Below are positions 1-61,690 of a DNA stretch of 64,000 nt, piece by piece. The stretch is taken from the NCBI RefSeq assembly GCF_021130785.1, contig NC_060213.1, positions 94,170,501 to 94,234,500 of the forward strand. Direction: 5' to 3'. The notes beneath the pieces were generated by a model, which saw only the letters and a list, made by a program, of their open reading frames with translations, was not told the DNA's origin and searched no databases. The stretch is from Homalodisca vitripennis. Its lineage: Eukaryota > Arthropoda > Insecta > Hemiptera > Cicadellidae. Position numbers and translations under genes: made by a program. How positions within the stretch are numbered: position 1 is the first letter of the stretch; the number at the start of each line of letters is the position of its first letter.

Positions 1-2339
1 CGTTGTAGGTGAGCATCATTGCTTAAAGTGGTAAAAATGGCACAGAAGTCATGTACTCTAGTTATAGAGTTGACGATGTCTATGGAATAAACAATGTAAG
101 CCATGAGGCATGTAAGGATAATATAGATTCAATTGGTGCCTATTAGTGTTATTGATCAATAAACTGATAAAAAATGAATATAGAGTATTCCAACAACATT
201 TTCGGTGGAGTATAACATATTGCAAATAACTAATATATCTAGCACATAGTGTGTCCCAAAGTGACTTCATAATCTTAAATAAACATATTATTTTAGTAAA
301 AAAAACTATTTTAAACTATTATAGGTTACAGTATATATACGGGACAACAGTCTGTTACTGTGTATTCACTGTGTATATACTGTAAATTTGAATTATGAGT
401 AACAAGACAAGTGTAAATATTTTTCTAGAATAGTGTAAAAGCTATAAGCCCACGTCAGACACATAATAATCATGTCTTCCTAAAGTATCATTTCAACTCG
501 TCGAATTTTTTTTTCAAATGTTTTGACAATGATTATGTACACGTTCACACATTAATGCACCTTTGTTTCATTTACTGTTTTCTAATTATGTATGAAATAA
601 TAGAAGGAATAATGTGTTAAAATTTTATTACGTAAATTCGTGAATTCGTTTTACTTATATTTTTTGAAATAATAATTAACTAATACGTGTAGGTCAAAAT
701 GGCGTTTAAAAATAGTCTTGATAAGAGTTTAAAAAAATACATATGATTGTGATACTCTTAGTACAATTTAGAATTGTTAACACATTGTATAAATGAAATA
801 GAAAGATTTGTGGTTTTAAAAAAGCTGATTAATTAAGCAGAATGTTTAAAAAAATGTGTAGTAAACGTTTTATTGCCTTTCTAAAACAACTAAACCCCAA
901 TTTAGAGCTTATACAACATTGTAATTGTTTTTTTTATACATTATGAGATGGCTTTGTTAAACAGTAATAATAATTAAAATCTTTCACGTAGTTTAATGAT
1001 ATGATTGTTTTATTACGACAATCACACTTATAAGAGTTATAGGTCCATTAGTTTTAGTACACTCTGTGCTAATATAATCTTCATACATTAAACAAATTTA
1101 TAATCATTAAATAAAAATTGAACAAGCTTTGTTACTGAAAATAAATTATAAATAATTATAATACGCAGAATCTATTTATTTGCGTTGCTAATCTTTTTGC
1201 TTACGGATGGTATTATAAATGGTTAAAGAGTAAATTCCAAAAATATATTATAAAATATAGGACGTAATTTTATACGACCGAAGGAAGAGAGACGCCATAC
1301 TTTAAAGTAAATGGACAGGGACTGGCCACTGTGCTCGGGAAAATTAAGTACTAAATTGATGCCAACTTCTCAACTCAAGAAATTTTACTTTCTAGAATAA
1401 TTTTAACATGATTTTCTTTATTATTGGTTTAGAAAAATATTAATATAAATTGTGTCATAGTAATGTATTTAGTATACCGAAAAATTAAAAATAGATCTTT
1501 TTCATACATTTTATTACTTTATATATTTCCCCCCAAGAAATACGCTTAAACGTTTGTTGTTATGCAAATAATTTTTCAATGAATATTTAAATAATTGGCA
1601 ACTTAATTATTTCTGCATCAAATTAGATTTTTGCTAAAAAGATTAAATGAAATATTGCGTAAAAAATATACGATTACTTAAATAACATTATTTATTTCTA
1701 TAAAATCAAGTTCATTCTATTATTCATTGCCAGTATATGAAAAAAAAACTTTCTATAAGGACAAAAAAAAATCTAGTAACATGTTCTAAGAATAAGAAAA
1801 GTTTCTAACCTTAGACGTAAAACAATGTACAATATGGTTTGTTTAGTACAAATTGAAGTAAATTATGTTCAAAATAAAAAAATAACTCCTAACAAAAAAA
1901 TATTTTATACTTCAGACTGGATATTTTGTGGTAATATTTATTATGTATTAAATATTTATGTTATAAATATGGTTATTTAATATTAAAAATTATTACACAG
2001 TTCAGTGTTAATAATATAATAGTTGTTAAATGTGTGTTTTATTTGTAACATATGCACAAATATTGTGTTACTGTTCAGGTGTTAGTAGTATTACTATAGT
2101 TACATCAATATTAAATTAGATAACTATAAGTAAAAGCTGCGTATATTTCAAGGGACGTAGTAAAAGTTTTTCCATGGTTATTTTGTAAAAATTTCGCACC
2201 GTAGATGTATAATTTTTACGCAGTGAATTACGTAGTTTTAAAAATCAATCGGAATAAAAAGCATACAATTATATATAAAAATAATTAGTTACATACACAA
2301 TAGCTAGTGTTATAAATATGTGTACGAAAACTTAAGAAG

Positions 2340-2535
2340 TTCGTGCTATCAATAATCTACAATCAGTTCTGTTAGTGACAAGTGATTCTCTTATCAGGAA
2401 AACAACGCGGTGTGAGGAATTGACAGGTGCTCATCATAGCATTGTCAACTGATGATAGCTGTTTTGATGAATAAACTATTATCATGATTATGACGAGAAT
2501 TGTATGAAAATTACGTTGAAATTAATCTTTGGCAC
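2340..2535 (+). repeat. Dispersed island A, copy 1
   Basis: This segment of about 190 bp aligns with 23505-23690 (same strand) and with 61770-61905 (opposite strand). Its arm mate is 45082-45270. The shared core holds the words TTGACAGGTGCTCATC and GATGATAGCTGTTTTGATGA. The DNA on either side does not align clearly with the other copies. I do not recognise the family. Confidence 0.6.
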
Positions 2536-3689
2536 ACAAAAATATCGAATTTAAGATGTGAGTAAATGTACAACACTTTTCGATGTTTAAAACTTAAATA
2601 TATTCATTTTAGAAGAATTTTTTAAATATATAAATGTCTGCCAATATATAAGAATTAAAATCACCTCGGTGAAAAATCTTCGTGTGTAACACACCCTTGA
2701 CAAAGCATAAAACATATGGTTACATATAATTTCAAATACATATTTCTGAAACTGGAGTAACATGTAACCTGAAATTTAATTTATCTAACTTTACACCTAT
2801 TATATTATTGACATTAATTATGATTCTAAATAAGTTATATGAGAGTATAAGGATTTATTCCCTTTTTGACCTCCTCCCTAACGTTTGTGTGATCAACCGT
2901 GATGACTATATTTATATTTCATATGGGTTAAAAATATTAAAAAAGTATGTATTTTAATATTAATTTTTTTGTAAAAACTTTAAGATACAACTTATCGACG
3001 TTAATATGGATGACCTTTGATAAAAATGTTTCATTTACAGTATTAGATGGAAACACGCGTGTTTAGTTTTTATTTATAAACCATTATACTGTTATTAAGT
3101 TGATACTTGTAGTACTAGGTTTCGAAACAATTATCATTAGCAATTAACTCTGAGAAACACAAGTCGGCTTCTTTCTTTCGTTCACACCCTAGCTGAGATA
3201 TTAAAGTTTACTATACGTTTATGTCACCATTAAGAAGAACAAAATCAGTACGCCAAAAATCAGGTTATGTAAAAAATGTCATATGGCTGTACAGTTGGTT
3301 TACGATTTACTATACGCATCATGGTTACTCATGAAACCAATATATAACACTTTACTAACCGTTAGCCAACTCCCATTGAGTGAAAAGTATTATCATCCGA
3401 CCAGTATTTGATTATGTAAATGGGGCTGCATTCAAAATTTACAGGCTATGTATTAGTATGTTCTTAAAACATAATATATAATAATGACATACAGGCTGAC
3501 ATAAAAACATACACTTTTCTATCCACTTTAAAGATAATCATCACTAGCCAATCACAAATCAACTAATAAGCTAGTGAAAAACAAATAAGTTGGCTTGTTA
3601 AATGATATGTTAAAAGGTACTAAATAAATAAAGCATAATTGCCTAACATTAAATACATAAATAATTCTGAGTAAAAGAATTTTACAGCA

Positions 3690-3870
3690 AAACATCAAAC
3701 TTTTTCACCAAAGACAGAGTTTCCTCGGAAGCTTGCACTGATTGTTTCCAGTGACAGAGCAGAAATGAAATCGTAGGAACGTCCTGTGGCAGAGTAAACA
3801 GGTTTGCTTTGGGTTGAGGTCCTTTGATCGTTATTCTATACGTGAGTTCAGTCAATGTGCTCTAAATTGT
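3690..3870 (+). repeat. Dispersed island B, copy 1
   Basis: This segment aligns for about 165 bp with 5235-5405 on the same strand, and for about 110 bp with 57600-57710 on the opposite strand. Its arm mate is 40050-40225. The shared core is CTCGGAAGCT, then GATTGTTTCC, then GAAATGAAATCG, followed by a GTAAACAGG-like word. The complementary strand can be read as a short open peptide in several copies, but the copies differ by indels, so coding is not supported. I do not recognise the family. Confidence 0.6.
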
Positions 3871-4186
3871 CGTTGGTTCTACCTTTATGGACCAGTTAGT
3901 ATTTTCGAATATAATCTATAAAAATTATGTTGTAACTTTCAAATGTTTGTCTTTACATATTTTTTTACAGTTATGTTAAAAAATATACTAGTTTTACTAA
4001 ACAAAATTCCGATCGTAAAGACCTATTGGTAGTCATAATCAAGTTTTCAGGTCAGTATTTTATATTTATTTATTTATAGTTAGTTATTATATTTATGAAC
4101 AATCTTGAGGCTTATAATTAGGATTTTTTTTAAATATTTACAAATATATACCTTATTAGAAACGTAAAATAATATAATTCCATAGC

Positions 4187-6091: not shown

Positions 6092-6180
6092 CAAAAAGGA
6101 CTTTACAACTTTGAAAATTCATAAAAATTTTATTAAACAAGGTACAGATCTGTTTTTGGTGATATTTTAAAGGAAGAAAC
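6092..6180. repeat. Left terminal inverted repeat of the mariner-type element
   Basis: This pairs with 6921-7020. It starts at ACAAAAAGGACTTT and lacks the CAGGGCGTTTC present at the other end. Confidence 0.8.
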
Positions 6181-6201
6181 TTTACGTTTTTTGACCTTAA
6201 A

Positions 6202-6886
6202 CTAAAGATGTTCTATGTGGCTTCCGTTGGTTATTCTGCAGACATCCAATCGGTAGTCGATTTCTTCCCAGACTCGCACTAGCATTTCCGGTGTAACTTG
6301 CTCAGCAGCAGCGTAAATTCTTGCTCTAAGTTCAGGTAGAGTGGCCGGAAAAGGAGGTACGTACACCATATCTTTTGTGAAACCCCAGAAGAAAAATTCT
6401 AGCGGTGTCATGTCTGGGGAACGGGGGGGGCATGCAATTGGCGCATCAACGGGCAATCTTATCAGTGTCTTTAATTGCTTGTAAAAGCGAATATCGATAT
6501 GGTTTCAAGTGCAAACGTTTTCTTAACACACGCCAAACCGTCGTATGTGGTACTTGCAGCTCACGAGATGCACGCAGGGTCGATTTCGTAGGGCTATTTA
6601 CAAAACATTGTCTCACTTGTTCAACGACTTCGTCAGATGTGCTTGGACGACATGAGGATTTTTTATGTTTCACTGAGCACCCTGTTTCTACAAAACAACT
6701 ATGCCACTCATAAATTGTAGGCCTACTAGGAGGATATTTAGCGTGCTTTTTACGAAAACTACGCTGAACTGTTGTCGCAGACTTCGATTCTTCAAACCAA
6801 AACACACAACTAGCACGCTCCGGTCCAGTGAAGGCAGCCATGTTTAACGTAGCTGTCACTAGCGCTTGTGCGGCGCGATTAGGCAC
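6202..6886 (-). pseudogene. Mariner-type transposase with the central catalytic region missing
   Basis: Two overlapping minus-strand frames carry the two ends of one transposase. The N-terminal part (6446-6886, 146 codons) has the helix-turn-helix DNA-binding region of insect mariner-like transposases: an ERASCVFWFEESKS start, then GRPST-like and HTTVWRVLRKRLHLKPYR segments. The C-terminal part (6202-6456, 84 codons) has the hallmark PPRSPDMTPLEFFFWGFTKD, then VYVPPFP, and ends with DYRLDVCRITNG. From family knowledge, roughly 150 residues with the first catalytic acidic residues should lie between them. Here the halves abut at about 6450 with a frame change, so a large internal deletion is inferred. 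The Asp of SPDMTP is the only part of the catalytic triad region still visible. The product is inactive. Confidence 0.85.
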
Positions 6887-6920
6887 TAACGGACTACGCG
6901 AGTAAAAAAAAACTTGAACT

Positions 6921-7020
6921 GTTTTCCTTTAAAACAACACCAAAACCAGCTCTGTACCTTTTTTACTAAATTTTATATGAATTTTCAAATTTGTGAAGTC
7001 CTTTTTGAAACGCCCTGTAT
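6921..7020. repeat. Right terminal inverted repeat of the mariner-type element
   Basis: The outer end reads CAGGGCGTTTCAAAAAGGAC on the minus strand. The repeat matches 6092-6180 with several substitutions and short indels. Confidence 0.8.
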
Positions 7021-8403: not shown

Positions 8404-8552
8404 CGACAGTTATCGTGTTCACAAACCACAGAGCGCTTACTTTTTCCGATTCAATTATTTTGTATTTGGCTATATCTGTAACATATGCGTTGAAATAAAA
8501 AACTAATATATGATCGGAAGACCAAATACCTGTCAAACGACTTTTATTATTA
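8404..8552 (-). mobile_element. tRNA-derived SINE, inverted and truncated copy
   Basis: Read on the minus strand, this matches the 5' half of the SINE at 8724-8975: GGTATTTGG, CTTCCGATCATAT, CAACGCATATG, AATTGAATCGGAAAAAGTAA, then GCGCTCTGTGG. It stops there and has no tRNA-like middle. It lies head to head with the next copy, giving a perfect inverted pair around the GAATCGGAAAAAGTAAGCGC word. Confidence 0.75.
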
Positions 8553-8558
8553 AATTGT

Positions 8559-8715
8559 ATAATTGAATCGGAAAAAGTAAGCGCTCTGTGGTGTAATGGT
8601 AGCACATTCACGCGGCAAGTGAGAGATCCGGGTTCGACTCCCGGCGGAGTAAGTACTTTTTGTGATTCAATGTTTATTGAAATTAAATAAGGCTATTGCC
8701 ATTTATACAATTTAA
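8559..8715 (+). mobile_element. tRNA-derived SINE, copy 2
   Basis: The tRNA-like head starts at GCTCTGTGG. It has an A box (TGGTGTAATGG), an anticodon arm (TTCAC, loop GCGGCAA, GTGAG) and a B box (GGTTCGACTCC). The GGC triplet at the anticodon position would fit alanine, but position 33 is C rather than T and the acceptor stem is imperfect. It is therefore a tRNA-derived promoter rather than a tRNA gene. The body ends in GATTCAATGTTTATTGAAAT and GGCTATTGCCATTTATAC. Confidence 0.85.
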
Positions 8716-8723
8716 TGTAAATA

Positions 8724-8975
8724 AAAGTCGTTTGACAGGTATTTGGACTTCCGATCATATGTTAGTTTTTTTTATTTAAACGCATATGTGACAGATACGG
8801 CCAAATACAAAATAATTGAATCGGAAAAAGTAAGCGCTCTGTGGTGTAATGTTAGCACATTCACGCGGCAAGTGAGAGATCCGGGATCGACTCCCGGCGG
8901 AGCTAGTACTTTTTGGGATTCAATGTTTATTGAAATTAAATAAGGCTATTGCCATTTATACAATTTAATGTTAAT
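8724..8975 (+). mobile_element. tRNA-derived SINE, longest copy
   Basis: This copy has the region before the tRNA-like part (GACAGGTATTTGG, then CATATGTGACAGATACGGCC), the tRNA-like head at about 8836-8905, and the same tail as copy 2. In the B box one T has changed (GGATCGACTCC), and in the D arm TGG has become TGT. Copies 2 and 3 follow each other as a near-tandem pair. A diverged relative lies at 19350-19590. Confidence 0.85.
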
Positions 8976-8981
8976 ATAATG

Positions 8982-8984
<3 letters not shown>

Positions 8985-9035
<51 letters not shown>
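8985..9035. repeat. (AT)n microsatellite
   Basis: An uninterrupted AT dinucleotide run of about 50 bp lies directly downstream of the SINE tail. Confidence 0.95.
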
Positions 9036-9038
<3 letters not shown>

Positions 9039-9049
9039 ACCACAAAATA

Positions 9050-18749: not shown

Positions 18750-20868
18750 GTACATCTATGAGGATTTCAGATTCCAGAGAATTATACTTCAGACGCCAAT
18801 GTACAGTTTTCCTTTTTGCAGCGATCTTAGTCAATTTTTTTATATACTTGTCCTATGATTTATTTTGTATAGTATCAAGATCAAGAATATACAAATACAT
18901 ACACAAATCTGTAAAACAAAAAATAGGTTTTATAAAAGTCTGTAATAATAAAACTGAGGTAGTAGTCATTCTTTCATATGTGCATTACAGTACTGAGCAA
19001 GCACTGCAATCTTTATATATGCTAAAATGTGCATTTAATTTTAAACCATATAAAATAAAACGAATCGTAAAATATGCTGCATAGCACTAAATTCGAATTT
19101 GGCTGTACCATTTTAGTTAATTCTGTTTTTTAAATAGTGTTTTCAACCCTCATACTCTTAAACATAATAGTTCAATTAATGTAAAATATTAATATTACGA
19201 AAATCCTAAAATATATACGTTAGTTAGTGTTTTCAAGAAATTTTATTAAAAACATTCAATATACTTACAATATTTTCAATAAAACATTAAACGTAGCAAT
19301 ACAAAAATAAACATTTAACAAGGTACTTGCTCCGCCGAAAAAGGTATTTGGTCCGTCTGATTATATAACACTATATTTATTTCAACGCATATGTGACAGA
19401 TACTGGCACATACAAAATAATTTAATCGTAAAAAGTAAGGGATTTACTGTGAAGTGTTAGCGCACTCACCTGGCAAGTGGGAGATCCGGGTTGGTGTCCA
19501 GGTGGAGCAAGTACTGTTTGTGATTTTTTGGAAAAAAAAGTACCAGTTTTTGGGAAAATTAAATTAGGCTATTGTCATTTATAAAAATTTAATCAGTTCT
19601 CAAGGAGTAGAATTCATTTATTAAACAATATTTAAAGTTTCTTAACACATTTTTCAAAATTATTTTTTCATAGTAGCGTGTGTAAGGTCACTATGGTGTA
19701 TCGCGTGACTGGTTTACTTGCCGCTTGGCCAGAACTCCACTATGATAACTGATATTGTATTCTCTACACTGTATAACTCACAGGTAAACTTTATCAAATA
19801 TTCAGTGTTATTCCAATCTTATAAATAATGAGTATCTATTCTTTTATTCTATATTTTATTTAAAATTACTATATATAACATAAAATTTTTTATTTACACA
19901 TGGTTATTAATACATTTACAATATGTCAAAATTATAGAAAATAGCTTTTTACAAATCCTGTATAAATACATTCACACTCTAAACACTCCTTACACAGTTT
20001 TAATATATACTCATAATATCCTCAAGATTTGGAAGATAATAATTTAACTCATAATGTTTAATATTATGTTAGGAAGATAAATCGTTGTGGTTATACACTA
20101 CCAGTTTCCAAAAAATCACTTAGTTTACAACATTTAATTAATAAATATCACAAAACTGGATATTTTTTATTGTCTATTAGCACAGTGCATTCATATTCTG
20201 CAAAGTTAAACCTATAAATTAATCTTATTAACCATAAGATTAATATTAACCATGTGTACGCGCCCTTAATACTGCAAAGATAGAAATACACCACATCCAA
20301 TATGTTACTATGTCACATCTTATAATGTCACATAATTAGGCAAAATGTGACTAGGAGGTTAAAATTGTAGTTTTAGGATTTAATCGTTTCCATTTTGATT
20401 ACCTATATGCCAATTTAAAAATGTAGGCTAACGCTGAGTCAAACGTAGAGAGGCACCATCAAACTCCAAACTGCATGTATTGAAATTAAGTTCCAGGTAG
20501 AATTTATAGTTTAAACGTATGTTCGTTTCATTAGATAACGAGTGGGTAGACAGACAGAAATAAAATTCCTCTAGCATTTCAAATGATACGCTTTTAGAAA
20601 TCCCAGTTAATAAATATCCACTTCTTCTATACTCAGCCATACCACTAGTAAATGGATGTAATACCTAACTCAACAAAGCTGCTAACCAGCTGAGTATGAT
20701 GCACACGTATTATAACCATGGCAGTTTGTTTATTGTCCTGATGCAAGCAGTCTCAGAGTACGGTATTGTTTACGCTGACAGTATAATTGCGCTGTCTGTG
20801 ACGTCACGGGTCGCTGCACAGAGTAATTGCGTATAAATCAGCTGCAAAGATAAAGTCCTTTCACTTTT
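18750..20868 (+). repeat. Source copy of a direct duplication (second copy at 37625-39668)
   Basis: Starting at the shared word CATCTATGAGG or ATCTATGAGG, this segment can be followed almost base by base in 37625-39668 until TCCTTTCACTTTT. It holds a diverged SINE (19350-19590), two modest frames (a plus-strand frame at 18698-19084 and a minus-strand frame at 20428-20640) and a candidate promoter at its right end. Both frames are broken in the second copy. I see no domain in either and do not call them genes. Confidence 0.9.
19350..19590 (+). mobile_element. tRNA-derived SINE, diverged copy
   Basis: This is the same family as at 8.4-9.0 kb: GGTATTTGGTCCG, CAACGCATATGTGACAGATA, AAAAAGTAA, the tRNA-like head, then AGTACTG and GGCTATTGTCATTTATA. 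Here the anticodon loop reads CTGGCAA, with T at position 33, closer to an alanine tRNA (GGC). The B box is damaged (GGTTGGTGTCC), so the copy is probably not transcribed. Confidence 0.75.
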
Positions 20869-36115: not shown

Positions 36116-36905
36116 GTTCACAACAGGACAGTCTGTAAAAGTCTGTTTTTAATGTTGTTTTATTGGTTATACTGTTTAATCTTCCATTTAAAAGTACCAA
36201 AAATAAACACACATATGATTGTTTGAGTGAAAATCAGTTTTAATGAATGTTTTACTTCTGAAATGAAAACTAGTTACTCAAAATAGATAAATAGCTATAT
36301 TTAACACGTTATTATTTACTTTAAAGTTTAAGTATTTTGGTAAACATGCACAGTTTTAGTCTGTAAACGAGCCCTGATTAAAGGTAAACATAAAAGTTAT
36401 AATGTAAAAATAACAATCCGATAATACATGCCACAATGAGGATAATTCATTTATTACTGTAGCAACCATGGAACAACAATAGACTCTGTTTACCAAAGCT
36501 AACAATACTGTTGTTATCCATTTAAACAAAATATTATTTATTTAGTTTCAACTGTTGTTATCACTATAATTGAGATGCCCAGTACTGTTTAGAATTTCAC
36601 AATAAGGGCAAAACTTTATGTATCCTAACTTTAAATTACTAAATTTTCCTTAAGTTAGCCTAATATTGAATTATTTCCCTAACATATTGAATGTATCAAA
36701 GTAACAGAAAATCTAATACCAACACAATTTTGCGTTTTTGAATATTCTAAATGATCAAGTGTAGCAACATCAACTATAATTTCTAATGATTACTTTCTGA
36801 GAAAATGGCGTAGTCATATACTTGTACTTACAATGTAAGCACATGTACAAGTACAATCATAAATAAATAAGCTTGTGATGATTTCATAACGCGGCCGTTA
36901 ATATT

Positions 36906-37088
36906 ACAATACATTTATAAATCTAAAAATTTATGTCTTTTTACAATACTTTTGGCTAAAAATTTGTAAATGATTAAATTAGACAAATAATTTTTTTACA
37001 ATATATTTATAAATCTAAAAAATTTATGTCGTTTTACAATACTTTTGGCTAAAATTTTGTGAATAATTAAATTAGACAAATTATTACT
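36906..37088 (+). repeat. Tandem duplication with 92-bp period, two units
   Basis: Units start at 36906 and 36998 with ACAATA[C/T]ATTTATAAATC and run through TTTACAATACTTTTGGCTAA to ATTAAATTAGACAAAT. They differ at only a few positions. A short (ATT)n run follows at about 37124-37142. Confidence 0.9.
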
Positions 37089-38204
37089 ATTGAATCGTAT
37101 CATAATAAGAGCTGTTATATCCATTATTATTATTATTATTTTATAACGTATCTGTTTCTTCCCTTGAGATTTTCTTTTGATGTTTAGTAAGGCTAAACAT
37201 AAACAAGTTCATTGACTAATCGACGTGGTAATTGCAGGTTTGTGAAGAAATGAGCAACAAAATAAAATAAAAAATCTTTTTTTCACAAATCGGAAAATAG
37301 TTTATTTTAGTTTAGTTTATAGGAAAAAGTATTACATATTCTTATAAATAATCACTGTGATACCCTTAAGAATAATTTCATGACCTGGAAGTGTTAACTA
37401 ATTTGGTAAGTCTATGAGCCAGATTAAAAAACATTTGCGTTATGAAAAGTAAAATTTACATATAATGTTAAAAGCATAAAATAGAAATAGCTTTATCATT
37501 TAAATAAATTTGTAACACATTAAATTTAATTAAGCTTTGGTTTAGTTATATTAGCTACTTATAAAATATAAAAACCAAATGGAAGCTATAAAAATTGTCG
37601 TTCGTATTTAAATATACCTATGTAAAATCTATGAGGTTTTTCGATTCCAGAGAATTATCTTCAGACGCCAATGTACAGTTTTCCTTTTTTGCAGCGATCT
37701 TAGTCACTTTTTTTAAATTTGTCCTATGATTTATTTTGTATAGTATCAAATCAAGAATAACAAATACATACCAAACTGTAAAACAAAAAATATTTTTATA
37801 AAAGCTGTAATAATAAAACTGAAGTAGTATCATTCTTTCATATGTGCATTACAGTACTGAGCAAGCACTAAATCCTTATATAGAAAAAAAATGTGCATTT
37901 AATTTTAAACCATAAAAATAAAACGAATCGTAAAATATGCTGCATACCCAAAAAATTTCGAATTTGGCTGTACCATTTTAGTTAATTTTTTTTTTAAATA
38001 TGTTTTCAACCCTCAAACTCTTAAACAAAATAGTTTTAATTAATGTAAAAATTAAATTCAAAATCCCAAATAATACGTTAGTTAGTGTTTTCAAGAAATG
38101 TTTTTAAAAAACATTCAATATACTTACAATTTTTTCAATAAAACATTAAACTAGAATACAAAAAATAAACATTTAACAAGGTACTTGCCCCGCCGAAAAA
38201 GGTA

Positions 38205-38450
38205 TTTGGTCCGTCTGATTATAAAAACCTAATTTATTTCAACGTATGGTGACAGATACTGGCACATACAAATTAATTTAATCGTAAAAGAAAGGGGATT
38301 TACTGTGAAGTGTTAGCGCACTCCCTGGGCAAGGGGAGTTTCCGGGTTGGTTCCGGTGGAGCCAGAAAGTTTGTGTTTTTTTTGGAAAAAAAGTACCATT
38401 TTTTTGGGAAAAATTTAAAATTTAGGCTATCGTCATTTATAAAAATTTAA
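38205..38450 (+). mobile_element. SINE within the noisy copy
   Basis: This is the counterpart of the SINE at 19350-19590, with added errors. The tRNA-like head is recognisable only by comparison (TTACTGTGAAGTGTTAGCGC, then TCCGGGTTGG). Confidence 0.75.
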
Positions 38451-39594
38451 TCATTCTAAAGGGAGTAGAATTCATTTTTTAAACAATATTTAAAGTTTCT
38501 TAACACATTTTCAAAATTATTTTTTTCATAGTAGCGTGTGTAAGGTCACTATGGGTACCCGCGTGACGGGTTTATTTGCCGCTTGGCCAGAACTCCACTA
38601 GATAACTGATATTGTATTCTCTACACTGTAAACTCACAGGAAAACTTTATCAAAATTCAGTGTTATTCCAATCCTATCAATAATGAGTTCATTCTTTTTT
38701 TGTATATTTTATTTAAAATTTTTATATATAACTTTAAAATTTTTTTTATTTACACATGGTTATTAATACATTTACAATATGTCAAAATTATAGAAAATAG
38801 TTTTTGTACAAATCCTGTATAAATACATTCAACTCTAAACCCTCCTTACACAGTTTTAATATATACTCATAATATCCTCAAGATTTGGAAGATAATAATT
38901 TAACTCATATTGTTTAATATTATGTTGGAATATAAATCGTTGTGGTTATACATACCAGTCTCCAAAAAACACTTAGTTTACAACATTTAATTAATAAATA
39001 CACAAAAAAGGATATTTTTTTATTTTCTATTAGCACAGTGCATTCAATTCTGCAAAGTTAAATCTTAAATTAACTTAATTTAAACCCAAAAAAACGCAAA
39101 GATAGAAACACGCCCCCCATCCAATTTTCTATGCACACTTTTAATGTCACATAATTGGGCAAAATTGACAGGAGGTTAAAATTGTATTTTTTGGATTTAA
39201 TCGTTTCCATTTTGATTAACTATATCCCCAATTTTAAAATGTAGGCTAACGCTGAGTCAAACGTAGAGAGGCACCATCAAACTCCAAAAAATGCATGTAT
39301 TTAAATTAAGTTCCAGGTGAATTTAAGTTTAAAAAAGTATGTTCATTAATAACGATGGAAGACATACAGAAATAAAATTCCTCTAGCCCTTTCAAATGAT
39401 ATGCTTTTAGAAATCCCGTTAATAAATGCCACTTCTTCTATACTCAGCCCAAACCCCTATAAAAGGATGTAATACCTAACTCAACAAATTGCTAACCAGC
39501 TGATAGATGCACACTATTAAACCATGCCATTTGTTTATTTCCTGATCAAGGATTCCAAGTACGGTATTGTTTACGCTAACAGTATAATTGCGCT

Positions 39595-39668
39595 GTCTGT
39601 GACGTCACGGTCCTGCACAGAGTAATTTCGTATAAATCAGCTGCAAAGGGAAAGTCCTTTCACTTTTC
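39595..39668 (+). promoter_or_regulatory. Second copy of the CRE/TATA/initiator promoter, cut at the start site
   Basis: TGACGTCA, CGTATAAAT and CTTTCACTTTT are all kept in order. Homology to the source stops about five bases after the predicted start, where the C15A tract begins, so no transcribed region follows. Confidence 0.5.
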
Positions 39669-39766
39669 CCCACCCCCCCCCCCCCCCACCCCCCCCCCCC
39701 CCCACCCCCCCCCCCCCCCACCCCCCCCCCCCCCCACCCCCCCCCCCCCCCACCCCCCCCCCCCCC
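39669..39766 (+). repeat. (C15A)n tract with an exact 16-nt period
   Basis: Single A residues at 39672, 39688, 39704, 39720, 39736 and 39752 are each 16 bases apart, with only C between them. The tract sits exactly at the junction between the noisy direct copy and the second inverted-repeat arm. Such regularity in an AT-rich genome suggests an artefact, although a real i-motif-forming minisatellite cannot be excluded. Confidence 0.95.
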
Positions 39767-40049
39767 ATATTCGTAAATATTAAAAACAAATCCTAATTAT
39801 AAGCCTCAAGATTGTTTATAAATATAATAACTAAAAAATAAATAAATAAATATAAAATACTGACCTGAAAACTTGATTATGACTAACAATATGTCCTTTA
39901 CGATCGGAATTTTGTTTAGTAAAACTAGTATATTTTTTAACATAACTGTAAAAAATATGTAAAGACAAACATTTGAAAGTTACAACATAATTTTGATCCG
40001 ATTATATTCGAAAATACTAACTGGTCCATAAAAGGTAAGAACCAACGAC

Positions 40050-40225
40050 AATTTAGAGCACATTGACTGAACTCACGTATAGAATAACGATCAAAGGACC
40101 TCAACCCAAAGCAAACCTGTTTACTCTGCCACAGGACGTTCCTACGATTTCATTTCTGCTCTGTCACTGGAAACAATCAGTGCAAGCTTCCGAGGAAACT
40201 CTGTCTTTGGTGAAAAAGTTTGATG
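40050..40225 (-). repeat. Island B within arm 2
   Basis: This is the inverted-repeat mate of 3690-3870. The 87-codon frame that overlaps it (40063-40326) is not kept in other B copies. Confidence 0.6.
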
Positions 40226-41263
40226 TTTTGCTCAGCAATTATTTACTGTATGTATTTCATGTTAGGAAATTATGCTTTATTTATTTAGTACCTTTTAACA
40301 TATCATTTAACAAGCCAACTTATTAGTTTTTTCACTAGCTTATTAGTTGATTTGTGATTGGCTAGTGATGATTATCACTAAAGTGGATAGAAAAGTGTAT
40401 GTTTTTATGTCAGCATGTATGTCATTATTATATTTCGAGAACATAACTAATACATAGCGTGTAATTTTTGAATGCAGCCCCATTTACATAATCAAAATAC
40501 TGGTCGGATGATAATACTTTTCACTCAATGGGAGTTGGCTAACGGTTAGTAAAGTGTTATATATTGGTTTCATGAGTAACCATGATGCGTATAGTAAATC
40601 GTAAACCAACTGTACAGCCATATGACATTTTTACATAACCTGATTTTTGGCGTACTGATTTTGTTCTTCTTAATAGCGACATAAACGTATAGTAAACTTT
40701 AATATCTCAGCTAGGGTGTGAACGAAAGAAAGAAGCCGACTTGTGTTTCTCAGAGTTAATTGCTATATTAATGCTTTCGAAACCTAGTACTACAAGTATC
40801 AACTTAATAACAGTATAATGGTTTATAAATAAAAACTAAACACGCGTGTTTCCATCTAATACTGTAAATGAAACATTTTTATCAAAGATCATCCAAATTA
40901 ACGTCGATAATGTGTATCTGAAAGTTTTTATAAAAAATTAATATTAAAATACATACTTTTTTAAATATTTTTAACCCATATGAAATATAAATATAGTCAT
41001 CACGCTTGATCACACAAACGTTAGGGAGCAGGTCAAAAAGGGAATAAATCCTTATACTCTCATGTAACTTATTCAGAATCATAATTAATGTCAATAATAA
41101 GGAATAAATGCTAGGTTACATGTACTCCAGTTTCAGAAATACGTATTTGAAATTATATGTAACCATATGTTTTAATGCTTTGTCAAGGGTGTGTTCCATA
41201 CGAAGATTTGTCACCGAGGTGATTTTAATTCTTATATATTGGCAGACATTTATATATTTTAAT

Positions 41264-41273
41264 AAAATTCTTC
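41264..41273 (+). repeat. 5' target-site duplication of the LINE
   Basis: AAAATTCTTC here is repeated at 44981-44990. The uninterrupted site, with one copy, is in arm 1 at about 2614-2623 (minus strand). Confidence 0.85.
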
Positions 41274-41275
41274 CT

Positions 41276-41990
41276 CCAGCACAGTAGGGCTGCCTCGGCA
41301 GCCTTCTGCCAGTTCTTCCTCCAGGAGGGATTTGATCTGGCACTGATTCAAGAACCATGGCTTCACCAAGGGAGAGTGGCGGGCCTAAATGAAACCAAAG
41401 GTAAGTTAATTTACTGTACCTCTCTAAGGAATGTCAGAACCTGCATCCTGTTGAGGAGAGGCTTGGATTTTCTAACCCTCAACGAATTCTGCTCCAGAGA
41501 TCTCACTGTGGGCACACTGACCTGGAAGAATGGAGGTATAGTGCAGAGCACAATTGTAGGCTCCCGTATACTTGCCATATGATGCCAGGGAACTCCCTCC
41601 ATCAAGAGACCTAGAGCTCCTGGTGGAAGAAGCACAAGCCAGACGTCAACAACTTCTTCTAGGTTGTGACGCCAACGCCCATCACTCTGCTGGATGGGGC
41701 AGCACCAACACTAACCCTAGAGGTGAGGCACTTTTACAATTTCTTCTAAGTAGGGACCTATTTATATGTAATAAAGGTAACCGCCCTACGTTCGCAACAC
41801 GAATTAGACAAGAAGTTATTGACATAACAATCTGCACACAAGGAATACTTGGAATGGTTGATAAGTGGCACGTAAGCGAAGAGGCCTCATTATCGGATCA
41901 CAGGTATATCCTCTTTAACTTAACTATCGTAATCCCAGGAGGACTGACTGGTTGGGATATAAGTCCTGACCTTCAGTCACAGTGTGGGAT
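41276..41990 (+). pseudogene. LINE endonuclease domain, frameshifted
   Basis: The first frame opens at the truncation with LQHSRAASAAFCQFF and reaches the catalytic glutamate in LALIQEPWL. A frameshift near 41575 moves it to the frame holding LLLGCDANAHHSAGWGS (the conserved D and N) and EASLSDHRYI, whose Asp and His are the last catalytic pair. So all main catalytic residues survive, but no single frame links them. The domain nicks the target site for insertion. Only the first strand and helix of the domain are missing. A second frame change lies near 41990. Confidence 0.85.
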
Positions 41991-43737
41991 CGGTAGGCGG
42001 AAGGGTGCGATGCTTCACAGACATAGATCAGATAGCTTCTGACCTGCAGAATGCTATAATCAATAGCTTCCATGACAATTGCCCATTGCGACGGGGGAAG
42101 AGTCGAACCAATAGTAAGTGGTGGACTGCAGACCTCGCTCGCAAAAGGGCTAATGTCAGGAAGCTGTACAATCAATGCAAAAGGAGCCGTATCTGGGAGT
42201 CCTATCATAGAGCTCTAACAGAATACAGCCTAGCAATTAAAAAAGCAAAACAAAGTTCCCTGGAGGCAGTTTAAACAGAAAGGTAAATGAGTTAAGCGCG
42301 GCAGCTAGACTGCAACGCTTGCTAGCCTCAAGTCCAACCGGTCACTTGGGATCTTTAAGGTCCCAGGGAGGTCAACACACTTCCGGGTCTAGTAATAGCC
42401 TCAAACTTCTCCTTGAGACTCACTTCCCTGATTGTATCTTTGAGAATGACGACACTGGAACGTCTGGTAATCACGAGGCAGGCTCACGGCCAAGAGCTTG
42501 TCGTGGTAGCTGGGCCATTGCCAGAAGGATTGTCACTCTCTCTAAAGCCAAATGGGCAATTTCTAAATTTGCCCCTTTCAAATCTGCAGGAGGGGATGGA
42601 ATCTTTTCCGGCCCTGCTTCAACAAGGGCCGGAGAATCTCCTTACCCTTCTATGTGAACTATTCAGGGCGAGCCTAGCCTATGGGTACATACCACAAGTC
42701 TGGCGTCTCAACAGGGTGGTCTTCATCCCTAAAAAAGGGAGAGCGGACTACTCTGTCCCTAAATCTTTTCGTCCCATCAGTTTATCTTCGTTTCTACTGA
42801 AAACATTAGAAAGACTGGTGGAGAGGCACCTGAGAAAGGGAGTTCTCTCAGACACTCCCCTTCATCGCAACCAACATGCATACCAGCAAGGCAAATCCTG
42901 TGAATCAGCACTGCACCAATTAGTCAGTAGGATTGAGGATAGCCTGTCCGCCAAGGAATTGGCATTGTGCACCTTCATAGACATTGAAGGAGCTTTCGAC
43001 AATGCCAAATTCACTGCAATGGTAAGTGGAGCACAGCGACGTGGCCTCGAGCCAGCTCTGTGCCGGTGGCTTAGGGCCATGCTGTGCTCCAGACGGATCA
43101 GGGCCGATCTCAATGAAGTATCGCTTGTGATCGCACCCACAAGGGGATGTCCTCAAGGAGGCATCCTGTCACCTCTACTGTGGAATCTAGTAGTAGATGG
43201 TCTACTTGAGGACCTTACTAACAACGGAATCTATGTCCAAGGATATGCAGACGACATAGTCCTTATGGTACAGGGAAAATACACAAATGTTGTTGTTGAT
43301 ATCAATGAACACCAACCTTCAACATGTACACAACTGGTGTCAGGTGAGAGGGACTGAAAGTAAATCCCTCTAAGACAGTAGTTGTACCATTCACTAGAAA
43401 AAAGAACCTAGAGTCTCTTTCTAGGCTGAAACTCGCATCCACTCAGCTGGAGTGGTCAAAGACAGTCAAATATTTAGGACTGACTATAGACCATAAGCTT
43501 ACGTGGAATGATCATCTTAATAATATCCTGCACAAAGCAAAGTGGGCGCTCATGACGTCCAGGAGACTTGCAGGAATCTCATGGGGCGTAAAACCCCATA
43601 TAGCACTATGGCTTTACAAAGCAGTTGTAAGGCCTCAAATCACTTATGGTTCATTAGTCTGGTGGACAAAGGTGAATCAGGTAACTGCCAAAGCCAAGCT
43701 TGAAAAAGCTTACAAAGGCTTGGCACAATCTTTGTAA
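41984..43737 (+). pseudogene. LINE reverse transcriptase domain, frameshifted
   Basis: A linker with a basic Lys/Arg-rich stretch (41984-42274) leads to the finger motifs at about 42690-42830 (RLNRVVFIPKKGRADYSVPK, then FRPISLSSFLLKTLERLVER). The first catalytic Asp is in FIDIEGAFDNA (about 42975). Motif B is GCPQGGILSPLLWN (about 43147). The catalytic YADD is at 43244-43255. Thumb sequences continue in another frame (VNPSKTVVVPFTRKK, then KYLGLTIDHKLTWNDHL and ALWLYKAVVRPQITYGSLVW). Frame changes lie near 42270, 42600, 43300 and 43350, with a stop at 43735. The domain would copy the element RNA into DNA at the nicked site. Confidence 0.9.
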
Positions 43738-44039
43738 CCGGAGCATTCAGGAGCAGTCCCTCAGCGACCCTCGAGGTGGCTTTAGGACTTCTACCTCTTG
43801 ATGTTTCATATAAAAAGCTGAAGCGCGTAAGTCAGCTTATCGGCTGATGGTTGCTGGCTTGTGGAGGAATGGCGCGTCTAACGCGAGCCATGGCGCCATC
43901 ACTGAAGCTGTAAACCCAAGCGCTATTCTCGAAATGGTCTCCGACACAATGAGAACGGAGTTCGTATTCAATAAGCCATTCTCTGTTGACTTCTACTCCA
44001 AGAGATGAGTGGAAATCGCAAGATAACATCCCAACAATA

Positions 44040-44480
44040 AGAAAGAGCTTTGTCTGGTACACGGATGGCTCGCTTATTAAGGGTAGAACTGGATATGGAG
44101 TGTTTAGTCAATCCCCTAGAACTGCCCTTAGCGGCAGTTTGGGTCGGAACTGCTCCATATTTCAAGCCGAAATCTATGGTATCCTAGCCTGTGCCAACCT
44201 AGGCCTCACCAGAAGGTACCAGGAAATGAACATCTGGTATAATGTCAGACAGTCAGGCAGCTCTTAAAGCTCTTGACTCCAACAGCATTTCATCCAAGCT
44301 TGTGTGGGAGTGCTTTAAACACTCTCTGCAAGCTTGGATCACGCAACTGTGTGCGTCTTGGTTGGGTACCGGGCCACACAGGCATAGGTGGCAACGAATG
44401 CGCCGACAGGCTTGCCAAAAGCGGAGCAAGCATGCCATACACCGGTCCAGAACCGAGTTGTGGTATAAGCAAGTCAGCCG
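44040..44480 (+). pseudogene. LINE RNase H domain, frameshifted
   Basis: The four catalytic acidic positions can all be seen. They are the Asp of WYTDGSLIKG (44055), the Glu of IFQAEIYGI, the Asp of MSDSQAALKAL (44242), and the Asp of GNECADRLAKSG (about 44390), with WVPGHTGIGG just before the last. They are spread over at least three frames, with changes near 44235 and 44340. RNase H in the same protein as the endonuclease and reverse transcriptase is typical of the I, LOA and related LINE clades and degrades the RNA template. Confidence 0.85.
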
Positions 44481-44639
44481 CTTATCAAAGTATAAACAAA
44501 TGGTCCAGGAAGACACACCGCTTGCGGTGGCAGAGGTCACCAAGGACAAGCACATCGGCAAAAAACCTGCTTGCCGATTCTAGCTCCGGATTCCACCAGA
44601 TGGCTGATGGGGCTGGGGAGGGATCGGGTTAAGCAAGTG

Positions 44640-44810
44640 ATTGCCTTGGATCACTGGACACGGCCACTTCAGGAAACACCTAAACACTCTAGGTTTACGA
44701 AATGAGGACTCGGAGTGTAGACTCTGCAATAAGTCTGAAGAGACTGCAAAACACATAATACTGGACTGTGAGAGACTGGGAGCAAGGAGAAGGGCTCTTT
44801 TTCGGTGATA
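44640..44810 (+). pseudogene. LINE C-terminal zinc knuckle
   Basis: One frame reads CRLCNKSEETAKHIILDC (44716-44769), a CX2CX8HX4C pattern common near the end of LINE proteins. It is preceded by GHFRKHLNTLGL. A stop follows shortly after an Arg-rich stretch. It probably binds nucleic acid. Confidence 0.7.
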
Positions 44811-44980
44811 AACAACCAGGCGACGAACCAGATGCTAGTATCGGGGAAAAGCTTCTTAGCCTAATTAAGTGCACGAAGATAGGCTTACCCCTCTAACATC
44901 AAAGGGGCACACAATAAGCTCAGGTTGACGTGTGAGGATCTAGGAATCCACCCCAATATCCCAAAGGAAAAAAAAAAAAA

Positions 44981-44990
44981 AAAATTCTTC
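44981..44990 (+). repeat. 3' target-site duplication of the LINE
   Basis: The second copy of AAAATTCTTC directly follows, or overlaps, the poly(A) tail. Confidence 0.85.
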
Positions 44991-45081
44991 TAAAATGAAT
45001 ATATTTAAGTTTCAAACATCGAAAAGTGTTGTACATTTACTCACATCTTAATTTCGATATTTTTGTGTGCCAAAGATTAAT

Positions 45082-45270
45082 TTCAACGTAATTTTCATAC
45101 AATTCTCGTCATAATCATGATAATAGTTTAATCATCAAAACAGCTATCATCAGTTGACAATGCTATGATGAGCATCTGTCAATTCCTCACACCGCGTTGT
45201 TTTCCTGATAAGTGAATCACGTGTCACTAACAGAACTGATTGTAGATTATTGATAGCACGAACTTCTTAA
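45082..45270 (-). repeat. Island A within arm 2
   Basis: This is the inverted-repeat mate of 2340-2535. Confidence 0.6.
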
Positions 45271-47560
45271 GTTTTCATACACATATTTATAACACTAGCT
45301 CTTGTGTATGTAACTAATTATTTTTTTATATAATTGTATGCTTTTTATTGAGATTGATCTTTAAAACTACGTATTTTACTGTGTAAAGTATTATACATAC
45401 ACGGTGCGAATATTTTACAAAATAACCATAGAAAAACTTTTACTACGTTCCTTGAAATATACGCAGCTTTTACTTATAGTTATCTAATTTAATATTGATG
45501 TAACTATAGTGATACTACTAACACCTGAACAGTAACATATTATTTGTGCATATGTTACAAATAAAACATACATTTTACCACTATTATTAACACTGAACTG
45601 TGTAATAATTTTTAGTATTAAATAACCATATTTATAACATAAATATTTAATACATAATAAATATTACCACAAACTATCCAGTCTGAAGTATAAAATATTG
45701 TTTTGTTAGGAGTAGTTTTTTTTATTTTGAACATAATTTACTTCAATTTGTACTAAACAAACCATATTGTACATTGTTTTACGTCTAAGGTTAGAAACAT
45801 TTCTTATTCTAAAAAAATTTTTTTGTCCTTACAGAATGTTTTTCTCATATAGTGGCAATGAATAATAGAATGAACTTGATTTTATAGAAATAATGTTATT
45901 TAAGTAAACATATATTTTTTTACGCAAAAATCTAATTTGATGCATAAATAATTAAGTTGCCAACTATTTAAAAATTGATTGAAAAATTATTTGCATAACA
46001 ACAAACGTTTAAGCGTATTTCTTGGGGGAAATATATAAAGTAATAAAATTTATGAAAAGGATCTCTTTTTAATTTTTCGGTGTACTAAATACATTAATAT
46101 GACACAAGTTAAATTAATGTTTTTCTAAACCAATAATAAAGAAAAACTTGTTAAAATTATTCTAGAAAGTAAAATTTCTTGAGTTGAAAATTTGGCATCA
46201 ATTTAGTACTTAATTTTCCCGAGCACAGTGGCCAGTCCCTGTCCATTTACTTTGAAGTATGGCGTCTCTCTTCCTTCGGTCGTATAGATTACGTCCTATA
46301 TTTTATAATATTTTTTTGGAATTTACTCTTTAACCATTTATAATACCAATCCGTAAGCAAAAAGTTTAGCAACGCAAATAAATAGATTCCGCTATTATTA
46401 TAATTATTTATAATTTATTTTCAGTAACAAAGCGTGTTCAATTTTTATTTAATGATTATTAATTTGTTTAATGTATGAAGATTATATTAGCACAGAGTGT
46501 ACTAAAACTAGTGGACCTATAACTCTTATAAGTGTGATTGTCGTAATAAAACAATCATATCATTAAACTACGTGAAAGATTTTAATTATTATTACTGTTT
46601 AACAAAGGCATCTCATAATGTATAAAAAAGCCAGTGACAATGTTTTATAAGCTCTACATTGGGGTTCAGTTGTATAAGAAAGGCAATAAAACGTTTACTA
46701 CACATTTTTTTAACATTCTGCTTAATTAATCAGCTTTTTTATATAACCACAAATCTTTCTATTTCATTTATACAATGTGTTAACAATTCTAAATTGTGCT
46801 AAGAGTATCACAATCATATGTATTTTATTTGAAACTCTTATCAAGACTATTTTTAAACGCCATTTTGACCTACACATATTAGTTAATTATTATTTCAAAA
46901 AATATAAGTAAAACGAATTCACGAATTTACGTAATACAATTTAAACACATTATTCCTTCTATTATTTCACACATAATTAGAAAACAGTGAATGAAACAAT
47001 AGGTGGATTAATGTGTGAACGTGTACATAATCATCGTCAAAACAATTGAAAAAAATTCGGCGAGTTGAAAAGATACCTTAGGAAGAGATGATTATTATGT
47101 GTCTGACGTGGGCTTATAGCTTTCACACTATTCTAGAAAAAATTTACTCTTGTCTTGTTACTCATAATTCAAATTTACAGTATATACACAGTGAATACAC
47201 AGTAACAGACTGTTGTCCTGTATATATACTATAACCTATAATAGTTTAAAATAGTTTTTTTTCACTATAATAATATGTTTATTTAAGATTATGAAATCAC
47301 TTTGGGACACACTATGTGCTAGATATATTAGTTATTTGAAATATGTTATACTCCACCGAAAGTGTTGTTGGAATACTCTATATTCATTTTTTATCAGTAT
47401 ATTGATCAATAACACTAATAGGCACCAATTGAATCTAGATTCTCCTTACTTACCTCATGGCTTACATTGTTTATTCCATAGACATCGTCAACCCTATAAC
47501 TAGAGTACAAGACTTCTGTGCCATTTTTACCACTTTAAGCAATGATGCTCACCTACAACG

Positions 47561-58433: not shown

Positions 58434-58501
<68 letters not shown>
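58399..58501 (+). repeat. Compound microsatellite (CCA)n (CAA)n (CA)n
   Basis: Three adjacent simple repeats: CCA at about 58399-58415, CAA at about 58416-58435, then a CA run to 58501. Confidence 0.95.
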
Positions 58502-60599: not shown

Positions 60600-61690
60600 T
60601 AACACATATACTCAACCGGTCCATTCCATGGTCTTCTGACTTCCACACACGTCTCTTGAATAGCACATGTGTGCCACTATTATGTTCATGTACAACTCGT
60701 GGCTCCGACACTGCGAATCATTTGAGTGTCTTTCTGTATTGTAAATGAAGTATTTCTATATTTGGTAAATTCGTTACCAAATATAGCCCTTTCGGTCCAT
60801 TCCTTGGTGTCTTATGACTACAAACACGTACACCACGTGGATGACACCCTAAAACACGTGGTGTCTACTTTAGAGTAACATCGTAATTCTAATGTATGAT
60901 AACATATATAGCCGTATCCGTCTATTCCTTTTGGTTTTATGCTACAAACACGTTTGGCTAACACTCTAAAACACTTGATGTTTACTGTGTAGTAAAAAAG
61001 TAATTGTAATGCATGCTAACAATTATCCTCATCAGTACGTTACTTAGTACGTATATAGTCACTACACACGTACAGCACAAGTCACCGACAATCTTAATGA
61101 CTTGAGGGTCATCGTTTAGAGGAAACACGGTATTTATACATTTTAATAAGATATTCAACTTTCCCCAGGATAATAATTCGTCTTTTGTCTATTCACACAT
61201 TCAGCACGCTGTATTGCTACTCTAAAATAACGTATTGTACTCTATAGTAAAAAAGTATTAAAAATATTCTCTAATAAATACAATTTTTTCCAGCGTAATC
61301 CTTTGTCTTTTGGATATTTTCTCACATTCAGCACGATTCATTGACACGATAAAATATCTTGAGTATCTTCCTTTACATAAAAAAAAACTTGTAAAGTTTG
61401 CTAACAAATGCAATTTTCACCTGCAAAATTCTTCGTCTTTTGACTCTCTTCACACATTCAGCACGTTGAATTGCCACTCTAAAATAACTTGAGTGACTTT
61501 CTTTAGTTTAAAAAAGTAGAAATATTTCTAACAAATACGGTTTTTAATAGTGCAGTTCCTTTTCTTTTATGTCTCTTCGCACATTCAGCACGCAGCATTG
61601 ACACTCTAAAATCATTTGAGTGTCTTCCTTTAGAATAAAATTGTATTTGAAATGTTTGCTAAGATAATCACCACTCAACATCACAAATGG
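60600..61690 (-). repeat. Diverged tandem array of about 128-bp units (island C family)
   Basis: A box related to CACACGTACAGCACG recurs at about 60646, 60821, 60945, 61065, 61194, 61323, 61451 and 61579. The last five spacings are 129, 129, 128 and 128. The first interval (175) may hide a damaged unit. Each unit also carries a GACACTCTAAAATAACTTGAGTGTC-like arm, which is partly self-complementary (GACACTC and GAGTGTC), then a TTCCTTTAGA word, then a CTAACAAATAC word. Units near 60600 are closest to the single copy at 7560-7710. Units toward 61690 are closest to each other, suggesting local expansion from that side. Confidence 0.85.

Follow-up and report, generated by a model that had tools for sequence, protein, structure and literature searches.

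A very probable false join marked by a degraded direct copy, an exact C15A tract and an allele-like inverted arm

False duplications in genome assemblies have been divided by Ko et al. 2022 into a heterotype class, in which the second copy is the other allele, and a homotype class, in which it arises from read errors, and gaps between the copies are listed among their marks (PMC9516828). At the level of single reads, Breakinator defines a fold-back as a turn within 200 bases and a chimera as a jump of over 1 Mb, so that an inverted jump of 16.7 kb would be called a true break (PMC12870357). The same report describes the unmapped sequence between the segments of artefact reads as enriched for homopolymers and short repeats, with homopolymer A and AC the most frequent (PMC12870357). 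Palindromic chimeric reads are plentiful in amplified libraries, as reported with the tool Pacasus (PMC6218980).

Here, we analyzed a stretch of 64,000 nucleotides (the window), in which three oddities, a degraded direct copy, a tandem tract and an inverted arm, abut within 2.1 kb. The features of the locus are the following.

1 to 4147, plus strand: first arm, read as allele A and lacking the retrotransposon; inverted pairing with 39767-47560 at ~94%
18754 to 20868, plus strand: source of the degraded direct copy, taken as the sound version on the basis of a tRNA-like repeat
37626 to 37627, no strand: first breakpoint, where window-unique sequence passes straight into the degraded copy
37627 to 39667, plus strand: degraded direct copy, from self-comparison and compressed-space counts
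39668 to 39766, plus strand: perfect (C15A) tract of period 16 and 99 bases, from Tandem Repeats Finder
39767 to 47560, minus strand: second, inverted arm, read as the other allele of 1-4147, with the retrotransposon, from self-comparison and balanced differences
41273 to 44984, plus strand: non-LTR retrotransposon in one arm only, from Pfam domains, frames and junctions

This arrangement is very probably a false join, introduced while a heterozygous, insect-like genome was being sequenced or assembled, and the duplication seen here is most likely an artefact. A false join of two haplotypes head to head had been proposed in a first-pass annotation of the window, and it is well supported by the allele-like arm, the badly read duplicate and the machine-like tract between them.

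Self-comparison of the window showed that 18754-20868 is repeated directly at 37627-39667, over 2146 columns with 89.1% identity, 97 mismatches and 113 gap openings (Expect 0.0), which agrees with the degraded direct copy of 18750-20868 described in the first-pass annotation. The inverted arm pairs 1-2623 with 47560-44979 at 93.7% and 2612-4147 with 41273-39767 at 93.6% (matches with E up to 1e-5). Its start at 39767, the base directly after the end of the tract, had been placed correctly before, while its extent is 1-4147 rather than 1-4170, and a 3.7-kb retrotransposon breaks the pairing within the second arm. None of the 14-mers of 37300-37640 recurs elsewhere in the window, including the sequence before 18754. 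The window contains no N, so there is no N gap at the join, and both breakpoints were judged on a single assembled sequence. A tandem pair with a 93-base unit (92% matches) lies at 36904-37085, approximately 540 bases before the first breakpoint, and could have helped a contig to end there.

To decide which of the two direct copies is degraded, we used a tRNA-like repeat at about 19376-19525 of the source, which has relatives in the window at 8559-8667 and 8812-8920. The repeat of the source aligns locally with the two relatives without gaps (86/109 and 85/109), whereas that of the other copy reaches only 64/92 and 67/96, in each case with six gap columns. A sound copy with a noisy source was rejected on these alignments, which point to 18754-20868 as the sound version and to 37627-39667 as the degraded one. 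The two relatives belong to a tandem pair at 8561-9046 with a 253-base unit, each unit carrying a tRNA-like sequence (Rfam tRNA, 47.6 and 43.4 bits). Because of the related copy at about 19376-19525, these units are read as probable tRNA-derived SINEs rather than tRNA genes.

The differences between copy and source have an unusual form. Global alignment yields 91 substitutions (20 of them transitions), 79 deletion events covering 109 bases and 26 insertion events covering 35 bases. The new base equals a neighboring base in 79 of the 91 substitutions, as opposed to 41/104 and 10/41 in the two arm segments. After homopolymer compression, the copy has lost 206 runs, gained 5 and substituted 9, and is thus almost a pure subsequence of the source. 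Among the runs that were kept, 129 are longer and 26 shorter, and 98 of the 129 longer ones lie within two columns of a change. Owing to this lengthening of neighboring runs, the length falls by only 74 bases, from 2115 in the source to 2041 in the copy. The earlier description of differences made up mainly of indels and homopolymer stretching is therefore borne out and sharpened by the run counts.

Among single-base runs, 169 of 1094 were lost, compared to 24 of 249 runs of length two and 10 of 88 runs of length three. Loss was unrelated to the base (chi-square p 0.25) and to the trimer (p 0.62), and systematic context errors were ruled out by its independence of base, neighbors and trimer. 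Along the copy, loss is patchy, with 6 to 31 lost runs per full 150 source bases. A 16-base period is absent from the error positions (power 1.35 in source coordinates and 0.05 in those of the copy; the top value among periods 2-59 is 5.61, at 58). In simulations of six error mixes (20 each), the five that contained insertions or substitutions gave a ratio of lost to gained runs of 2.4 at most, whereas the observed ratio is 41, so a loss-dominated noise is needed. The sixth mix, deletion-only, averaged 119:0 and matched the one-sidedness, but pure deletion would neither lengthen runs nor nearly preserve the length, as seen in this copy. The highest neighbor-repeat excess in the whole window falls in three 500-base windows at 39501, 38001 and 39001, the first of which includes the tract. 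To the left of the copy, eight 250-base windows starting at 36901-37601 have mean run lengths of 1.49-1.59, all above the mean of the whole window (1.456, sd 0.10), but parts of the copy itself score 1.50-1.59, which makes run length a blunt measure of noise in this flank.

Gained and substituted runs cannot be created by pure loss, and they account for only 14 of the 1493 compressed columns of the copy, compared to 86/1843 and 36/1080 in the arms; the copy therefore hardly differs from the source as an allele. It looks like a second, badly read version of the same or a locally near-identical allele, and a stretch of low heterozygosity would equally give it this appearance. We infer that its degradation is read error.

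The noise had been called typical of unpolished long reads. It is of the uncorrected type, as that description implies, but its one-sided loss (206:5) is unlike the published averages for PacBio and nanopore reads. PacBio reads are on average rich in insertions, with about 8% insertions versus 3% deletions, and nanopore reads roughly balanced at about 4% of each type (PMC7671305), although deletions are elsewhere reported to lead the nanopore errors (PMC8486125). In the first of these reports, transitions are prominent among nanopore substitutions. The copy has 35 inserted and 109 deleted bases, the reverse of the excess of insertions in raw PacBio CLR reads and in line with the predominance of deletions reported for raw nanopore reads in PMC8486125. 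The low share of transitions (20/91) and the imbalance between lost and gained runs depart from the nanopore profile, from whose average a single bad read may of course deviate. In its direction, the noise is closer to nanopore than to PacBio, and it is more one-sided than either average.

The copy is followed at 39668-39766 by a tract of period 16 with 6.2 copies, 100% matches and 0% indels over 99 bases (Tandem Repeats Finder). The spacing of A at exactly every 16 bases, reported in the first-pass annotation, is confirmed: A occupies positions 39672, 39688, 39704, 39720, 39736 and 39752, and the tract contains five C15 runs and a closing run of C14. No comparable tract follows the source at 20868 or the first arm at 4147, which rules out a natural tract already present at either place. 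C15A as a known artefact was not borne out among the prokaryote genomes and viral contigs searched. Three exact C15A units occurred at 0 loci of a prokaryote genome collection, which may omit records close to the window's own. Among viral contigs, C12AC12 was found at 42 loci with irregular spacing, and 36 of the 42 tracts lie no more than 130 bases from the end of the fetched locus, which may differ from the end of the contig. C-rich tracts near the ends of metagenome viral contigs are taken to be artefacts of poly-G reads. Like the tract described here, the viral-contig tracts consist of C runs interrupted by single A's; in contrast to it, none of the 42 printed tracts has a regular 16-base period.

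The 16-base period suggests a software origin, as 16-base words and 32-bit packing would each give 16. A toy walk through 16-base words with at most one A, in which A is taken before C, generates exact C15A repeats, and at two bits per base C15A fills one 32-bit word. The walk demonstrates only that such a rule yields the pattern, which other rules yield as well. A run-length cap in an assembler was rejected as the cause of the 15, since the values given for Shasta, which stores run counts to 255, and for HELEN, which works in blocks of 10, do not fit (PMC7483855). The tract looks like machine output.

Beyond the tract, the inverted arm differs from 1-4147 in a manner expected of alleles. The first segment has 104 substitutions and the second 41, spread along the arm, and in compressed space lost and gained runs are balanced at 64/61 and 30/25. 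The ~94% identity, substitution levels of 2.8% and 4.1%, the balanced differences and a retrotransposon with target-site duplication in one arm only make it look like the other allele, although an old duplication would give a similar picture. If the allele reading is true, the inverted homology would continue beyond window position 1.

The retrotransposon at 41273-44984, which we take to be of Jockey-like type, contains open frames in more than one register with domains for an endonuclease (PF14529), a reverse transcriptase (PF00078, RVT_1, E 4.9e-29) and PF00075 RNase_H. It ends in A17 at 44968-44984 and is flanked by a short target-site duplication of TTCTTC plus A's that are inseparable from the tail. 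Among the best 120 of the 633 relatives of its reverse transcriptase, the top E-value for a named organism belongs to Graphocephala atropunctata (51% identity over 73% of the query), and the highest identity to Nilaparvata lugens (72% over 50%). Both species are sap-sucking bugs.

In the scheme of Ko et al., which also draws on read depth and k-mers (haploid depth and single-copy k-mers on both copies for the heterotype class), the arm would by its sequence fit the heterotype class and the copy the homotype class (PMC9516828). The arm shares with the heterotype class the allele-like divergence, evident in its substitutions, its balanced compressed changes and its one-arm retrotransposon, as well as its position in one sequence with the first copy, beside a disturbed stretch. 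It differs in being inverted and joined without an N gap; a gap between copies is listed as characteristic, and a gap that had been filled would leave no N. The copy, in turn, shares with the homotype class that it is the degraded partner and differs by noise and hardly by allele-type changes. Its small size of only 2 kb, its placement as a bridge and its one-sided run loss set it apart.

A hairpin or fold-back read, which the first-pass annotation had also put forward, shares with the locus the opposite orientation of pieces from the same locus and the low complexity between them (PMC12870357, PMC6218980). It was rejected on geometry. The copy is direct and ends at 20868, and the sequence that follows runs in reverse from 4147, 16.7 kb away, whereas a fold-back would resume in reverse at about 20868. 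The turn is thereby displaced far beyond the 200-base limit set for the opposite-strand segment in Breakinator (PMC12870357).

The locus could be read at face value, as a genuine inverted segmental duplication around a spacer of 35 kb, the inner edge of which would also hold a direct duplicate in decay and a C-rich tandem repeat of natural origin. The arm divergence of ~6% and the retrotransposon in one arm are also expected of an old duplication, and the join lacks an N gap. Natural decay, however, is not expected to lose 206 runs and gain 5, and the diverged arms show no such bias. A perfect sixfold C15A beside a heavily scarred copy is hard to square with mutation, and almost no allele-type change is found in the copy. 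We consider a real duplication very unlikely.

We infer that the animal contains no such molecule and that one uncorrected read or fill forms the bridge. Under a false join, the sequence up to 37626 would be one contig or path of allele A, and the sequence from 39767 on would be a separate consensus of allele B from the same locus in reverse. The bridge at 37627-39766 would then be a single-read or otherwise uncorrected stretch, containing a badly read second copy of 18754-20868 and 99 bases of machine-generated junk. Most likely, a chimeric read left its uncorrected end, or a gap filler its inserted piece, hanging on one contig end, and this was taken as the bridge. The false join itself has points to its disadvantage: the average error profiles in PMC7671305 and PMC8486125 do not match the noise of the copy, run loss is uneven along it, and no adapter remnant was found in the window within about one error in five bases. 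A single 13-base match to an Illumina adapter at 8510, with 2 errors, was taken as chance.

The bridge may have been created in the laboratory or in the computer. A cis-chimeric molecule from library preparation or whole-genome amplification, formed by template switching within the locus, sequenced once and then assembled, is a possible part of the earlier chimeric-read proposal and one that we regard as plausible, if short of probable. Both pieces come from one 21-kb locus in opposite orientations, palindromic chimeras are common in amplified libraries (PMC6218980), and the unmapped sequence between artefact segments is reported to be rich in homopolymers and short repeats, with AC one of the leading motifs (PMC12870357). 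Against this, the jump of 16.7 kb shows no fold-back and would count as a true break in the Breakinator scheme (PMC12870357), the two parts look like different alleles, and the change in quality at 39767 could arise only if the second part were a consensus of several reads. Being classed as a true break, the jump lends weak support to a real molecule; both the noise and the tract weigh against it. A computational bridge, in which contigs were scaffolded head to head and a gap filler or polisher added an uncorrected read segment and low-complexity filler, is likewise conceivable without being the probable course. TGS-GapCloser, for instance, places read segments between contigs, and its authors state that error correction is needed (PMC7476103). 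The C15A pattern is obtainable from the toy walk or as a single 32-bit word, but other rules give it too, and without a shared 14-mer at the left flank (37300-37640) no overlap explains the choice of the inserted piece.

A false join left in place would introduce a spurious inverted duplication, would misorder the sequence past 37.6 kb and could seed mistaken claims of gene families or inversions; the locus is in this sense a useful warning for assemblies. The count of lost and gained runs in compressed space, with the allelic arms as an internal control, offers a means, independent of reads, of telling copies made by read error from real duplicates that have decayed, and could be tried over whole assemblies. 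The succession of a near-subsequence copy with lengthened neighbors and an exact period-16 C15A tract might even be a reusable fingerprint of one failing basecaller, corrector or gap filler, although we hold this to be doubtful; the papers retrieved in a literature search on it concern other subjects, to judge by their listings and abstracts. If true, it would be detectable from the assembled sequence alone and would recur in other assemblies from that tool.

The window as a whole is AT-rich, with a GC content of 0.23-0.40 per kb outside 41-45 kb, and looks eukaryotic and insect-like by its mobile elements. An element of ~0.9 kb at 6092-7007 has 100-base terminal inverted repeats (85%) and, on the minus strand, a helix-turn-helix fragment (HTH_32 and DUF4817, both below the Pfam cut-offs), and it looks like a decayed DNA transposon. 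Tandem repeats include a degenerate array with a 127-130-base unit in ~3.7 copies at 61156-61633 and a perfect (AC)33.5 microsatellite at 58435-58501.
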